Of a stretch of 12,130 nt of DNA, positions 8,075-11,183 are shown piece after piece. Numbering within the stretch: position 1 is the first letter of the stretch; every line of letters starts with the position of its first letter. The notes beneath the pieces were generated by a model. That model was not told the DNA's origin, did no database searches, and worked only from the letters and a program-made list of their open reading frames with translations. The DNA lies in assembly GCF_020216685.1 (NCBI RefSeq), contig NZ_JAIWNS010000089.1, positions 1 through 12,130 of the forward strand, given 5' to 3'. The position numbers were made by a program, and so were the translations under genes. This DNA is from Methanospirillum hungatei (GTDB taxonomy: Archaea; Halobacteriota; Methanomicrobia; Methanomicrobiales; Methanospirillaceae).

Positions 8075-8644
8075 TTAAGATTTCATCCGCTCAATCATTA
8101 TTTCTGCTCTCTTCAGATCCTCCGGCGTGTTGATGTTTAAAGTCAGGAGAGGATCAGGGATAATTATCTGGATCTCTTCCTGTTCTTCATCGATCATGCT
8201 CCCGGTAAGGATGTTCATACCAACCGGTATACCTGGAATCGTATCAGAACTCGTCTTTTTTGGATCAGGGGCCCATACTGAACAAGCCGGTCTGCCTGAT
8301 TCGTGAAATTGTTCAATAACGTTGCGTATATGATCTGCAGTAATACCTGGAAGGTCTGCACATATGGTCAGAAATGGACCGGAGATAGATAATTCATCGA
8401 CTGCCTGGCATATGTCCTGCACATAGCCTTTCCCGTCTGTACATATCCACGGAATGTCATGCATTCTGCAATAATTTGTTGTGTAAGGAGTCAAGGGAGA
8501 GACAATGACCATCGGTTCCAGATCTGCTTTTTCTACCGCATTCAGAACAAATGACAACAGGGGTTTATCATGAATTCTGGTCAGGGCTTTTTCACCCATT
8601 CCAAGCCGGGATGCCCTGCCACCTGCCATTATGAGTGCAAACAT
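8075..8644 (-). CDS. cobY: CobY, GTP:adenosylcobinamide-phosphate guanylyltransferase
   Basis: CobY is the archaeal replacement for bacterial CobU guanylyltransferase activity: it transfers GMP to adenosylcobinamide phosphate to make AdoCbi-GDP in late cobalamin synthesis. The 189-aa protein has the nucleotidyltransferase N-terminal loop ALIMAGGRASRLGMGEKAL (residues 3-21), the metal-site-like strand ADLPGIT (96-102), and TLNINTPEDL (168-177), all usual for small CobY/MobA-like enzymes. Context with CobD argues for CobY over MobA. Its start overlaps the end of cobD by 16 nt, and GGAG sits about 12 nt upstream inside cobD. Corrinoids are essential for methanogen methyl transfer (Mtr complex), which fits the organism. 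Confidence 0.87.
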   Translation of the reverse strand: MFALIMAGGRASRLGMGEKALTRIHDKPLLSFVLNAVEKADLEPMVIVSPLTPYTTNYCRMHDIPWICTDGKGYVQDICQAVDELSISGPFLTICADLPGITADHIRNVIEQFHESGRPACSVWAPDPKKTSSDTIPGIPVGMNILTGSMIDEEQEEIQIIIPDPLLTLNINTPEDLKRAEIMIERMKS

Positions 8645-9633
8645 GCGGAAATCTTCTCCAGTACCTCAATAAAGCGATCATTTTCTTCTTTCGTTCGGAT
8701 AGCAATCCGAATACTTGTTGAGAGACCAAAAGAGCTGCAGTCACGGACCAGTATATCATTTTTGAAAAAGAGATCGGTGATATACCCAGAAGGCCGGCCT
8801 GTCTCTATGAGAAGATAATTGGCACTTGCTTTTGAACAAGACCAGCCTACTGTGGTGATGCTCTCCATCAACCGGGTTTTCTCTTTTTCTATCATCTCTC
8901 GTGAGTATTCCAGATCATGATATTTTGAAAAAGCAGAGAGAACTACCTTTTCAGCAAAGGCATTGACCGTCCAGGGGGGGCGCATAACCTCCATGGATGC
9001 AATAAGATCCGGATCACCGATCCCGTATCCAAATCTGATTCCAGGGATTGCAAAACTTTTCGTTAATGATCGGAGAACAAATAATCGAGGATCTCTGATA
9101 TCTGATACAGACTGGGATGGATCTGATAGGTCGATAAATGCTTCATCAATGCAGAGTATCTGATCAGATCTTTTCATAGAGAACCGGGAGATTATCTCCT
9201 GCTTTGGTATGAGGACTCCGGTGGGATTATCCGGGTTACAGATGAATGAAAGAGAAGATTCTAGTTCAGTTTTTGCTGATTGTGCCCCGGTGAGTCGTGC
9301 AGACAATTCATATTCAGCAAACGTATGTTCAGGAACAAAATAGGCCCTGTTCTTATCCAGCACGGTGTGACATAATGTTCTGATTACCTCAACCGAACCA
9401 TTTCCTACGGTGATGTTGTCTGGTTTACACCCATGATGACGGGCAATTACCTCTTTTAATACCAGGTACTCATCATCAGGGTACCGGGTCAGTGCGTCTT
9501 CAGGTATGGAAAGATCTAATTTTGGGGGATATGGATTAATGTTTGCACTGAAATCAAGAATTTCTCTTGTATTTCCTGCAATATATTTTGCTCTGCCCCC
9601 ATGAACAGCACGAAGTTCAGATTTGTATCTCAT
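8629..9633 (-). CDS. cobD: CobD, L-threonine-O-3-phosphate decarboxylase
   Basis: A PLP-dependent fold-type I enzyme of the histidinol-phosphate aminotransferase family; CobD decarboxylates threonine phosphate to (R)-1-aminopropan-2-ol phosphate, the linker of the cobalamin lower loop. The 334-aa protein begins with the CobD-specific HGGRAKYIAGNTREILDFSANINPYPP (residues 11-37). PLP motifs are NPDNPTG (133-139), DEAF (163-166), SLTKSFAIPGIRFGY with the Schiff-base K192 (189-203), and a C-terminal RIAIRT arginine region. HisC is the alternative, but the HGG/DFSANINP start and the cobY overlap favour CobD. It is slightly shorter than many CobD proteins. AGGAAAGAG upstream of ATG 9633 is a suitable ribosome site. 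It is the first gene of the minus-strand operon. Confidence 0.87.
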   Translation of the reverse strand: MRYKSELRAVHGGRAKYIAGNTREILDFSANINPYPPKLDLSIPEDALTRYPDDEYLVLKEVIARHHGCKPDNITVGNGSVEVIRTLCHTVLDKNRAYFVPEHTFAEYELSARLTGAQSAKTELESSLSFICNPDNPTGVLIPKQEIISRFSMKRSDQILCIDEAFIDLSDPSQSVSDIRDPRLFVLRSLTKSFAIPGIRFGYGIGDPDLIASMEVMRPPWTVNAFAEKVVLSAFSKYHDLEYSREMIEKEKTRLMESITTVGWSCSKASANYLLIETGRPSGYITDLFFKNDILVRDCSSFGLSTSIRIAIRTKEENDRFIEVLEKISACLHS

Positions 9634-9676
9634 CTGACAGCTCTTTCCTATTCATGAACACCTGATTGTTTACAGC

Positions 9677-9689
9677 TATCTATTTTCAC
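9677..9689 (-). promoter_or_regulatory. Possible cobD operon promoter (BRE/TATA-like)
   Basis: On the minus strand GTGAAAATAGATA lies about 45-55 nt upstream of the cobD start. Initiation some 25 nt downstream would leave a leader of about 20 nt holding the ribosome site. The match to a TATA box is weak. Confidence 0.3.
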
Positions 9690-9701
9690 TCAGGAATAAA
9701 T

Positions 9702-9720
9702 CGAAACCTTTATGTATTTA
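9702..9720 (+). promoter_or_regulatory. BRE/TATA promoter of the cdrS-ftsZ operon
   Basis: CGAAACC followed by TTTATGTATTTA is a good archaeal BRE plus TATA arrangement. Initiation is expected near 9735-9745, about 80-90 nt before the regulator gene. That places the whole 11-bp repeat array at or just downstream of the transcription start. Confidence 0.5.
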
Positions 9721-9746
9721 TGAATTGTATTCTGTGTATCTCGTTG

Positions 9747-9812
9747 TGTCTGACTTTTGTCACCTCTATGTCAGACGTGTGACAGACATATGACCGACAG
9801 ATGTCAGATCAT
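9747..9812. repeat. Six phased 11-bp repeats, probable operator array
   Basis: Six consecutive 11-bp units start at 9747, 9758, 9769, 9780, 9791 and 9802. Each starts TGTC or TGAC, and the consensus is TGTCAGAC plus 3 variable nt. Positions 1, 2 and 4 (T, G, C) are invariant; position 6 is G in five of six and position 7 is A in five of six. Units 3 and 4 form the near-palindrome TGTCAGACGTGTGACA (14 of 16 symmetric). The 11-bp period is about one DNA turn, so bound dimers would line up on one face. The array ends 11 nt before the ribbon-helix-helix start codon and lies downstream of the TATA-like element, a position suited to repression. Confidence 0.75.
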
Positions 9813-9823
9813 GAGGCTTATGT

Positions 9824-9994
9824 ATGAAGCGAATCACCATCCGGTTGCCTGAACAGCAGATAACGCTGCTGGAGAAGATGGTTGAGGCGGGTGAATTTCC
9901 CACCGTCTCCGAGGCTATCAGGGATGCTGTACGTATGCTCATCGAAAAGCGGGCGACCAGAGTGCTCGCTGACAGTGATCAACTGTCATTTTAG
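9824..9994 (+). CDS. cdrS: Ribbon-helix-helix regulator, CdrS-like, upstream of ftsZ
   Basis: A 56-aa protein with a complete MetJ/Arc-type ribbon-helix-helix: the DNA-contacting strand MKRITIRLP (residues 1-9), helix 1 [14 protein letters not shown] (10-23), then the turn and helix 2, [19 protein letters not shown] (25-43), followed by a short tail. In haloarchaea the small RHH protein CdrS is encoded upstream of ftsZ2 and controls division genes; size, sequence style and position here match that, so I infer an orthologue. GAGG at 9813-9816 sits 7 nt before ATG 9824; the nearby ATGs at 9811 and 9820 are in another frame. The gene ends 19 nt before ftsZ and is surely cotranscribed. It probably binds the 11-bp array in front of it. 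Confidence 0.88.
9970..9988. promoter_or_regulatory. Perfect inverted repeat before ftsZ
   Basis: TGACAGT-GATCA-ACTGTCA has perfect 7-bp arms and a 5-nt spacer. It lies in the last codons of the RHH gene, followed at once by TTTT, and ends 25 nt before the ftsZ start. The arms hold the same TGACA/TGTCA half-site as the upstream array. It could be a second operator, or an RNA hairpin that attenuates or processes the transcript ahead of ftsZ. Confidence 0.6.
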
Positions 9995-10013: not shown

Positions 10014-11183
10014 ATGCAGAGTATCATCAATGCCGCAGTCATCAACGCGGAACGAGAAAAAGAACTCAAGAATATATCGCAGAACTATGATGATGATATC
10101 GATGGACAACCACGAATCGTCATCATTGGATGCGGTGGGGCCGGAAACAATACCATAAACCGTCTTCATCATATGGGCGTCTCCGGCGCAGAGACGATTG
10201 CCATTAACACTGACAAACAGCATCTGGACATGATTCAGGCCGATAAGCGTATTCTTATCGGAAAGAGCCTGACAAAAGGACTTGGAGCAGGAGGTTATCC
10301 TGAGATCGGCAGAAAAGCTGCAGAAATGGCTCGTCCAACCTTAGAAAGTCTTCTTGAGTCCGTTGATCTCTGTTTTATCACTGCAGGTATGGGAGGGGGT
10401 ACCGGAACCGGATCTGCTCCGGCAGTCGCGCAGATAGCAAAGGAACAGGGAGCCATTGTTGTCGGTATGGTTTCCTATCCGTTTGATGTTGAGAAGGCCA
10501 GACTGATTCGGGCTGAAGACGGACTTGAGGCCATGTCAAAGGCATGTGATTCAGTCATTCTTCTTGACAATAACCGGCTGAAGAGTTTTGTTCCAAACCT
10601 TCCACTTGCACAGTCTTTCTCAGTCATGGACCAGTTGATCGGTGAGACGGTAAAAGGAATTACTGAGACGATTACTGAACCGTCACTCATTAACATCGAT
10701 TATGCTGATGTCAGGGCAATCATGAGCAAGGGTGGTGTCGCAACCATGCTCGTCGGAGAGTCAAAACAACAGAATAAAGCAGAATCCGTTGTTCGAGAGT
10801 GTCTCTCCAACCCGATGCTTGACATTGATTACCGCGGCGCAACCGGGGCATTGATCCACATCACCGGCGGGAGTGATCTGACGCTCATAGAATCCGAAGA
10901 GATCGCTTCCTCTCTGACCTATGAGCTAGATCCTCATGCCGATGTTATCTGGGGAGCCCGTATCCGTTCAGATATGGAAGGAAAAGTCCGCGTTCTTGCC
11001 ATCATGACCGGCGTGAAAAATGGCGACACTATCGCCAAGCCAAAACAGCCCTACAAGGAAAAACTTGACAGAATAGAAGAACAGATCCGTTATCCGAAAT
11101 CCCCTGACCTTGCGCGAATTAAACCCCGCTCAGTCACCGCAGCAATGGATTACGCAAGCGGACCTGACATCATGTGGATGTAA
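10014..11183 (+). CDS. ftsZ: FtsZ, tubulin-like cell division GTPase (probably FtsZ2 group)
   Basis: FtsZ polymerises with GTP into the midcell division ring. The 389-aa protein has [12 protein letters not shown] (residues 35-46, nucleotide loop), the tubulin signature [10 protein letters not shown] (127-136), and the T7 synergy loop NIDYADV (227-233) with N227, D229 and D232 in the positions needed to activate the neighbouring subunit's GTP. The start is ATG 10014, with GAGGGGG at 9999-10005; an ATG-less extension back to 9882 in the same frame is only overlap with the RHH gene. The C-terminal tail ends [11 protein letters not shown], a possible partner-binding peptide. The CdrS-like neighbour suggests the archaeal FtsZ2 group, which I cannot confirm by phylogeny here. 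Confidence 0.97.

Follow-up and report, generated by a model that had tools for sequence, protein, structure and literature searches.

The locus described here bears on how archaea dose their division proteins. In the window, by which we mean the whole 12,130-base stretch of Methanospirillum hungatei DNA that was analyzed, a cdrS-like gene and ftsZ diverge from an aminotransferase gene (8629-9633, on the other strand), and the 190-bp gap between the divergent genes contains a row of six 11-bp units (9747-9812). Is this row a genuine array, which protein reads it, and what would it do to the genes that follow?

An 11-bp array between the promoter and the cdrS-like gene

The six units start at 9747, 9758, 9769, 9780, 9791 and 9802 of the forward strand. 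As the initial annotation had stated, the steps are exactly 11 bp, T, G and C are invariant at unit positions 1, 2 and 4, and 11 nt separate the array end (9812) from the cdrS ATG (9824). Its description of the unit as a one-way 8-mer, by contrast, had to be corrected. When cdrS loci of the order were pooled (58 loci from 61 genomes, our own locus counted among the 58), the unit emerged as a near-palindrome, the 7-bp odd palindrome GTC-W-GAC, often extended to TGTCWGACA. Each unit is thus two-fold symmetric about an axis of its own, as would suit binding by a single RHH dimer.

Unit 1 (TGTCTGACTTT, 9747-9757) carries a perfect GTCWGAC core and shows no or one core mismatch in 54 of the 58 order loci; unit 2 (TGTCACCTCTA, 9758-9768) is degenerate, with at least three core mismatches in 54/58. 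Unit 3 (TGTCAGACGTG, 9769-9779), again with a perfect core, is the best conserved of the array, its core bases being G in 57, T in 49, C in 57, G in 58, A in 56 and C in 58 of the 58 loci. Units 4 (TGACAGACATA, 9780-9790) and 5 (TGACCGACAGA, 9791-9801) are of intermediate quality across the order, while unit 6 (TGTCAGATCAT, 9802-9812) has a strong left half (G in 56, T in 57 and C in 57 of 58) and lies directly 5' of a Shine-Dalgarno-like GAGG of cdrS (9813-9816, forward strand), the putative ribosome-binding site.

To score the row we used a consensus-free measure, the agreement among the six 11-bp columns (maximum 66), on which the array reaches 49. Scores of at least 48 were found within the window only at starts 9741-9748, which are registers of the same array, and none of 2,000 dinucleotide shuffles of 9634-9823 reached 49, the best scoring 44. 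Among pitches from 8 to 14, a pitch of 11 gave the highest agreement (0.758), with 14 as runner-up (0.679), and Tandem Repeats Finder reported an 11-bp array at 9767-9808. The array is therefore genuine and above chance.

The array had been placed just past a BRE/TATA element, which matches the sequence: a BRE (CGAAACC, 9702-9708) and a TATA box (TTTATGTA, 9709-9716) form the predicted cdrS-ftsZ promoter on the forward strand (9702-9716). The best TATA-like box starts 36-46 nt 5' of the unit-1 core in 55 of the 58 order loci and 49, 51 and 59 nt away in the remaining three, so that this distance is more variable than the distances between units. A recurrent half-unit, here called u0 (ATCTCGT, 9738-9744, forward strand), lies between the TATA box and the array at the expected start site. 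An [AG]TCT[GC] element is found 5' of unit 1 in 46/58 order loci, 29 or 30 nt past the TATA start in 26 of these 46 and 10 nt ahead of the unit-1 core in 24 of them. Judged by its position, u0 may coincide with the transcription start site and have a role there.

The gene that follows (9824-9994, forward strand) encodes 56 aa with a single RHH domain (Pfam RHH_1, PF01402; 38.5 bits against a cutoff of 20.5). Its best match among nine NCBIfam hits is NF058555 CdrS (Halo), a model named for haloarchaea (E 5e-17, 61.6 bits); since the score lies under the cutoff of 100, we call the protein CdrS-like rather than a member of NF058555. As in CdrS, a single RHH_1 domain makes up a protein of about 55-60 aa, and the gene stands directly 5' of an ftsZ2-type gene. 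This ftsZ (10014-11183, forward strand; 389 aa; Pfam Tubulin and FtsZ_C; TIGR00065 ftsZ, 416 bits) is the FtsZ2-type partner, and its ATG lies 19 nt past the cdrS stop. We also noticed that the C-terminal tail of CdrS beyond the RHH core, about 12 residues (9956-9991 in the window), is conserved, reading SDQ-x-SF or similar in the order, with a terminal WAKV after a variable linker in many haloarchaeal copies. In its sequence, this tail looks like a protein-contact motif.

Conservation in the order and spread through the phylum

A CdrS match was present in 58 of the 61 genomes of the order, own genome included. Conservation of the units and of their 11-bp pitch in relatives, which the initial annotation had proposed as a check, was borne out at these loci: the array exceeds the 99th percentile of shuffles in 58/58. 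The best four-unit score has a median of 20/24 and a minimum of 15, compared with 11 for shuffles, whose 99th percentile is 14 and whose maximum is 16. Good units are spaced at multiples of 11 (11 bp, n = 83; 22, n = 114; 33, n = 81; 44, n = 37; 55, n = 47), and the commonest distance off this series was 15, with n = 6.

Beyond the order, a 13-row CdrS profile searched at a threshold of 1e-8 matched 269 of 390 genomes of the phylum. Upstream DNA was taken from 45 CdrS loci outside the order, picked to spread over families, and a tubulin/FtsZ signature lies downstream in 44 of them; the cdrS-ftsZ2 gene pair has already been published as conserved into Methanomicrobia (PMC7439475). Within 200 nt, at least three good units sharing an 11-bp register were found in 55/58 order loci and, outside the order, in families f8 (4/5), f27 (4/4), f31 (3/3), f28 (2/2), f32 (1/1) and f7 (1/1). 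They were rarer in haloarchaea (3/10) and in f9 (1/16), and were not found at the single loci of f18, f19 and f11, the last of which has an RHH gene with no adjoining FtsZ. The label haloarchaea covers families f13, f17, f20, f22, f25, f26 and f29, with a cdrL-like RHH plus zinc-ribbon gene upstream in 12/12 loci; the one DacZ tested matches a haloarchaeal model, which supports the label, and f23 and f30 (one locus each) were included by resemblance of protein and promoter alone.

Absent or decayed arrays at loci with no cdrS or a broken one

Among 23 genomes searched for FtsZ, 17 have no cdrS match, and these yielded 18 ftsZ2 loci; the set omits L275, where the contig begins inside ftsZ, and all ftsZ1 loci. 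The median four-unit score 5' of the 18 genes was 12/24, which is shuffle level, compared with 20 in the order, even though the scan covered 500 nt in these loci and 200 nt elsewhere. Ahead of these 18 ftsZ2 genes, the array is missing or has decayed.

A genome in which the cdrS reading frame is broken (G070) scored 31/48 core matches over eight units, while three CdrS-bearing kin in its genus scored 40/48 each; a fourth in this g43 comparison (G342) was excluded because an indel breaks the register. The G070 locus (L279) thus combines a broken cdrS with a decaying array, and the ftsZ2 upstream regions of G084 and G090 (L276 and L277) are a possible further stage. The three loci perhaps form a natural loss series inside family f8. 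For ftsZ1 in the order, no array was seen in the five loci examined (L294-L296, L298 and L301).

CdrS as the probable reader of the array

The 56-aa RHH protein had been put forward as the natural ligand, and four lines of evidence favor that assignment: the targets of CdrS in haloarchaea, the dependence on cdrS described above, covariation of the central base and exclusivity in the own genome. On these grounds, CdrS is probably the array's ligand.

The first line comes from Haloferax volcanii, for which CdrS ChIP-seq gave 18 sites, including ftsZ1 (-50) and dacZ (-47) relative to the start site (PMC8406309, Table 1); the sites are described with a symmetric motif, and 15 of the 18 fall 41-110 nt upstream of a start site (PMC8406309). 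In our set of 12 haloarchaeal genomes, a GTCNGAC pair at 11-bp pitch with at least 10/12 core matches was found at the ftsZ1 promoter in 10/12 and at the dacZ promoter in 6/12, the latter scored from the ORF start, which is uncertain at L387. L373, whose start codon could not be located, was scored from a fallback position. A pair of this quality was missing at 2/12 ftsZ1 promoters (both in genus g103) and at 6/12 dacZ promoters. Five pairs are perfect, three at ftsZ1 and two at dacZ. The best pair sits directly 5' of the BRE/TATA in 9 of the 10 ftsZ1 promoters and farther up, at -122 from the ATG, in L374; by our own count, pair centre and expected start site are some 50 nt apart, in line with the ChIP table. 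Shuffles as good as the ftsZ1 pairs numbered 0/500 for eight of the ten, 1/500 for L372 and 10/500 for L373, and for the six dacZ pairs they numbered 0, 0, 3, 5, 5 and 7 out of 200. At least two GTC-N-GAC cores at 11-bp pitch are thus a candidate CdrS recognition unit, one that links the methanogen and haloarchaeal data. Proteasome promoters, considered as further CdrS targets, were not confirmed: although psmB is on the Haloferax list, only 1/30 loci scored at least 10/12.

The third line concerns the DNA-reading strand of CdrS. Its beta-strand residues 3/5/7 are RTR in 58/58 order loci, where 111 of 123 exact units have A or T at the centre. In f9, these residues are KSR in 16/16 loci, and 2/28 units have an A/T centre; f28 patterns with f9, with K at residue 3 in 2/2 and an A/T centre in 1/4. 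The central base of the unit thus changes with residues of the strand by which CdrS reads DNA; the covariation possibly reflects a single evolutionary event.

In the own genome, the three-unit pattern allowing up to 3 mismatches was counted three times; since the array alone gives a count of three, it is, by count, the only such site at that stringency. An order-wide regulon was likewise considered and rejected. With the same pattern, the 61 genomes gave 123 sites compared with 65 in a reversed control, yet 87 of the 123 windows sit in the 58 cdrS upstream regions, and the remaining 36 are fewer than the control. A haloarchaeal regulon inferred from pair counts was also set aside, for the 181 exact GTCNGAC pairs in 40 genomes stand against 4 in a reversed control that is not fair, and much of the excess may be codon composition; in 275 kb of haloarchaeal DNA, pairs at gaps other than 4 totalled 6 over 24 gaps, about 3 per genome when scaled. 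Since the pair count is unreliable, the argument rests on positions at ftsZ1 and dacZ.

A seemingly rewired promoter in haloarchaea

The haloarchaeal cdrS promoter carries a related element, GTAAGACNNNNGTCTTAC (GTAAGAC-N4-GTCTTAC), which keeps the 11-bp pitch and has GTA rather than GTC in its outer halves. Allowing one mismatch, GTAAGAC-N4-GTCTTAC gave 12 matches in 10 of the 12 haloarchaeal genomes and none in the other two; eight lie at the cdrS promoter (seven of them exact) and four elsewhere (none exact). Further copies of GTAAGAC/GTCTTAC beside GTAAGACNNNNGTCTTAC, often one just 5' of the cdrS start, were seen at L239-L246, L249 and L356-L367. In Halobacterium, the cdrS-ftsZ2 promoter is the sole reproducible genomic binding site reported for CdrL, a protein with a zinc-ribbon tail whose gene is described as restricted to haloarchaea (PMC7439475), while the ChIP list of 18 sites for Haloferax CdrS is given without the cdrS promoter (PMC8406309). 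The element and its extra GTAAGAC/GTCTTAC copies are probably the CdrL operator.

The simplest history seems to be that CdrL took over an older CdrS operator in haloarchaea, which yields a testable case of rewiring, in which a self-controlled GTCNGAC promoter seems to have turned into a CdrL-controlled GTAAGAC promoter. Such a takeover was not found in the text consulted from the two CdrS papers (PMC8406309, PMC7439475), and among the literature matches listed no title on CdrS in methanogens was found. The claim that no array of this kind has been described for CdrS is consistent with the text consulted from the same two papers.

Similar repeats elsewhere

A second three-unit 11-bp array, for example GTATGACGATTGTCATACAATTGTCAGAC, was seen at L326-L330 and at L316 (2021-2049), lying 162-170 nt 5' of a gene for a conserved 106-aa protein. 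It follows soon after a GTPase gene, which we take to be YchF/OBG-like, and in some cases lies between GC-rich inverted arms. In five genomes of g5 and g12 it shows 2 mismatches in four and 4 mismatches in one; the other 25 of the 30 loci examined, own genus included, have at least 5. This array is a lineage-specific exception to the cdrS-only occurrence in the order.

In haloarchaea, the gene downstream of a GTCNGAC pair at L425 is presumably a HerA-like ATPase with a seeming intein in its Walker A motif, where GKSGSGKS is followed by a long insert ending VHN-S. At L454, one of 30 haloarchaeal pair loci sampled blind, a GTCNGAC pair lies 154 nt ahead of a gene for a tubulin-family protein with a GGGSGSG signature. 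This protein scores 77 bits against NCBIfam ftsZ, under the cutoff of 295, and we assume it to be CetZ-like. Expression of cetZ1 is reported to depend on cdrS in Halobacterium (PMC7439475).

A scan of genome contigs for three perfect units returned at least 120 stretches, which are bacterial by title among the matches listed, and the scan is therefore uninformative on the archaeal array. Many three-unit GTCWGAC 11-bp arrays lie scattered per genome among these listed matches (L080, L085-L089, L092 and others), the bacteria being Flavihumibacter stibioxidans and a few others. The corresponding scan of viral contigs returned 24 contigs. Perfect tandem ATCGGACATTT repeats of 11 bp were seen at L321 (G039:C1:21953-21992).

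Function of the array

What would CdrS do on this array? The array combines an equally spaced tandem symmetric motif with overlap of the promoter/start region: it lies wholly downstream of the TATA box, over the start-site zone and the 5' leader. Since protein bound at such a position would be expected to favor repression over activation, and since unit 3 (strong), unit 2 (degenerate) and the half-unit u0 fit spreading from strong to weak sites, we take cooperative, concentration-dependent autorepression as the most likely function. The array would accordingly be the autoregulatory operator of cdrS-ftsZ, on which CdrS dimers load cooperatively and repress by feedback; we put the probability of this reading at roughly three in four.

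In this mechanism, one CdrS dimer would read one GTC-W-GAC core per unit through its N-terminal beta-ribbon. At an 11-bp pitch, adjacent dimers would lie nearly on the same face of the helix and be able to touch, which would make their loading cooperative. The strong unit 3 and its neighbors would fill first; at higher CdrS levels, the row of dimers would extend across unit 2, which is degenerate, unit 1 and the start-site half-unit, and would block assembly of the pre-initiation complex or promoter escape. CdrS would thereby keep its own amount, and the amount of FtsZ, at a set point. The proposed cooperativity and order of filling draw on unit position and on analogy with other RHH regulators, including archaeal viral factors that bind distal strong sites first and then degenerate promoter sites as concentration rises (PMC5569661). 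If so, the array is a concrete, deeply conserved operator for cdrS-ftsZ. Across the phylum, CdrS does not autoregulate as a rule, as the Haloferax ChIP list and Halobacterium CdrL indicate.

It is possible, if doubtful, that the same operator with the same ligand produces net activation, or a two-phase switch in which low CdrS stimulates and high CdrS represses. Haloarchaeal CdrS-type pairs sit just upstream of the BRE/TATA of ftsZ1 and dacZ, and ftsZ1 falls when cdrS is repressed in Haloferax (PMC8406309), so that the haloarchaeal pairs look like activator sites. Halobacterium without cdrS has less ftsZ2 RNA, while its ftsZ1 RNA did not fall (PMC7439475), and there the drop in ftsZ2 RNA fits activation better than repression. 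The viral RHH factor AvtR, moreover, stimulates at low and represses at high concentration (PMC5569661). At the locus studied here, however, every unit lies downstream of the TATA box, where bound protein is expected to hinder initiation.

That another protein, for instance a different RHH or a helix-turn-helix regulator, reads the array, with CdrS merely the downstream gene, is improbable. CdrL is indeed the mapped binder of the Halobacterium promoter (PMC7439475), and CdrS is not listed at the cdrS promoter in Haloferax (PMC8406309), but cdrL is described as haloarchaea-restricted (PMC7439475), the array is absent or decayed without cdrS, the centre base of the unit tracks CdrS residues, and the GTCNGAC unit recurs at the promoters of genes that ChIP mapped as CdrS targets.

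Here, as in the ParR system, a gene for an RHH protein stands next to 11-bp repeats and a filament gene, and CdrS loci of the order share a conserved tail past the RHH core. Both features would suit a ParR/parC-like nucleoprotein site, in which CdrS wraps the array and ties the locus, or its own synthesis, to FtsZ polymers. We consider this very improbable, since the array is confined to a single promoter, on the downstream side of its TATA box, and the haloarchaeal pairs precede target genes, as a transcription factor needs. A broader speculation, a long shot as well, is that CdrS coats the 11-bp iterons while its tail contacts FtsZ2, so that the state of the ring would feed back on the promoter or the locus would be tied to the ring; transcription would then be one output of a chromosomal, tubulin-type counterpart of ParR/parC/ParM.

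Hardly tenable is a 5' leader RNA hairpin that controls translation or termination. Relative to shuffles, the leader does fold more stably, with a mean z of -2.76 across the 58 loci and of -1.02 when the unit cores are held fixed, the linkers adding some pairing. The antisense strand, however, folds about equally well (mean z of -2.60; p 0.37 in a paired test; the sense strand scoring lower in 31/58), as palindromic DNA would, which makes an RNA element unlikely. The exact 11-bp pitch has no evident use in RNA, and the haloarchaeal ftsZ1 pairs, being upstream of the TATA box, should not be part of the transcript.

Comparison with known systems

Cooperative autorepression by CdrS, the reading that we prefer, has parallels among RHH proteins. 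Dimers of MetJ, Arc and the omega repressor bind adjacently on short tandem sites (of 8, 11 and 7 bp, respectively); these belong to bacterial, phage or plasmid systems unrelated to division. Among archaeal viral factors, SvtR, AvtR and F55 share the spreading from strong distal to weak promoter sites, and F55 occupies tandem repeats close to start sites, including at its own promoter, but these proteins are viral and read other motifs, and no array this long or regular is described in the source cited (PMC5569661). SegB of Sulfolobales, likewise an archaeal RHH protein, has palindromic sites 5' of the operon that encodes it, where feedback has been suggested; it differs in serving chromosome segregation and in its 13-bp motif, which occurs at two sites upstream of segAB and at many chromosome-wide, with no 11-bp array mentioned in the text consulted (PMC12284271).

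In layout, the locus is like ParR/parC. ParR, an RHH protein, recognizes direct repeats that adjoin a gene for a filament-forming protein, and ParR of plasmid R1 needs at least two repeats, which are 11 bp long there (PMC9426499). That system is a plasmid centromere with an actin-like partner (PMC9426499), whereas the site here is a promoter on the chromosome and the partner is tubulin-like; the neighboring gene here encodes FtsZ and not the actin-like ParM that defines ParMRC.

Two further systems come from the haloarchaea. CdrL of Halobacterium is an RHH protein at the cdrS-ftsZ2 promoter, and the haloarchaeal GTAAGACNNNNGTCTTAC shares the 11-bp pitch, but CdrL has a zinc-ribbon tail and is described from haloarchaea only (PMC7439475), and the outer half-sites of GTAAGACNNNNGTCTTAC are GTA instead of GTC. 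CdrS of Haloferax and Halobacterium is, as here, a small RHH protein whose gene lies just before ftsZ2; there, the gene is co-transcribed with ftsZ2 and the protein regulates division genes (PMC8406309, PMC7439475). In Haloferax, its own promoter is not listed among its sites (PMC8406309), whereas the cdrS-like gene studied here has six units in its promoter, past the TATA box. The array is more general than a single-locus view would allow, its unit matches sites at the promoters of known CdrS targets, and it is probably a variant of the cooperative RHH operator arrays.
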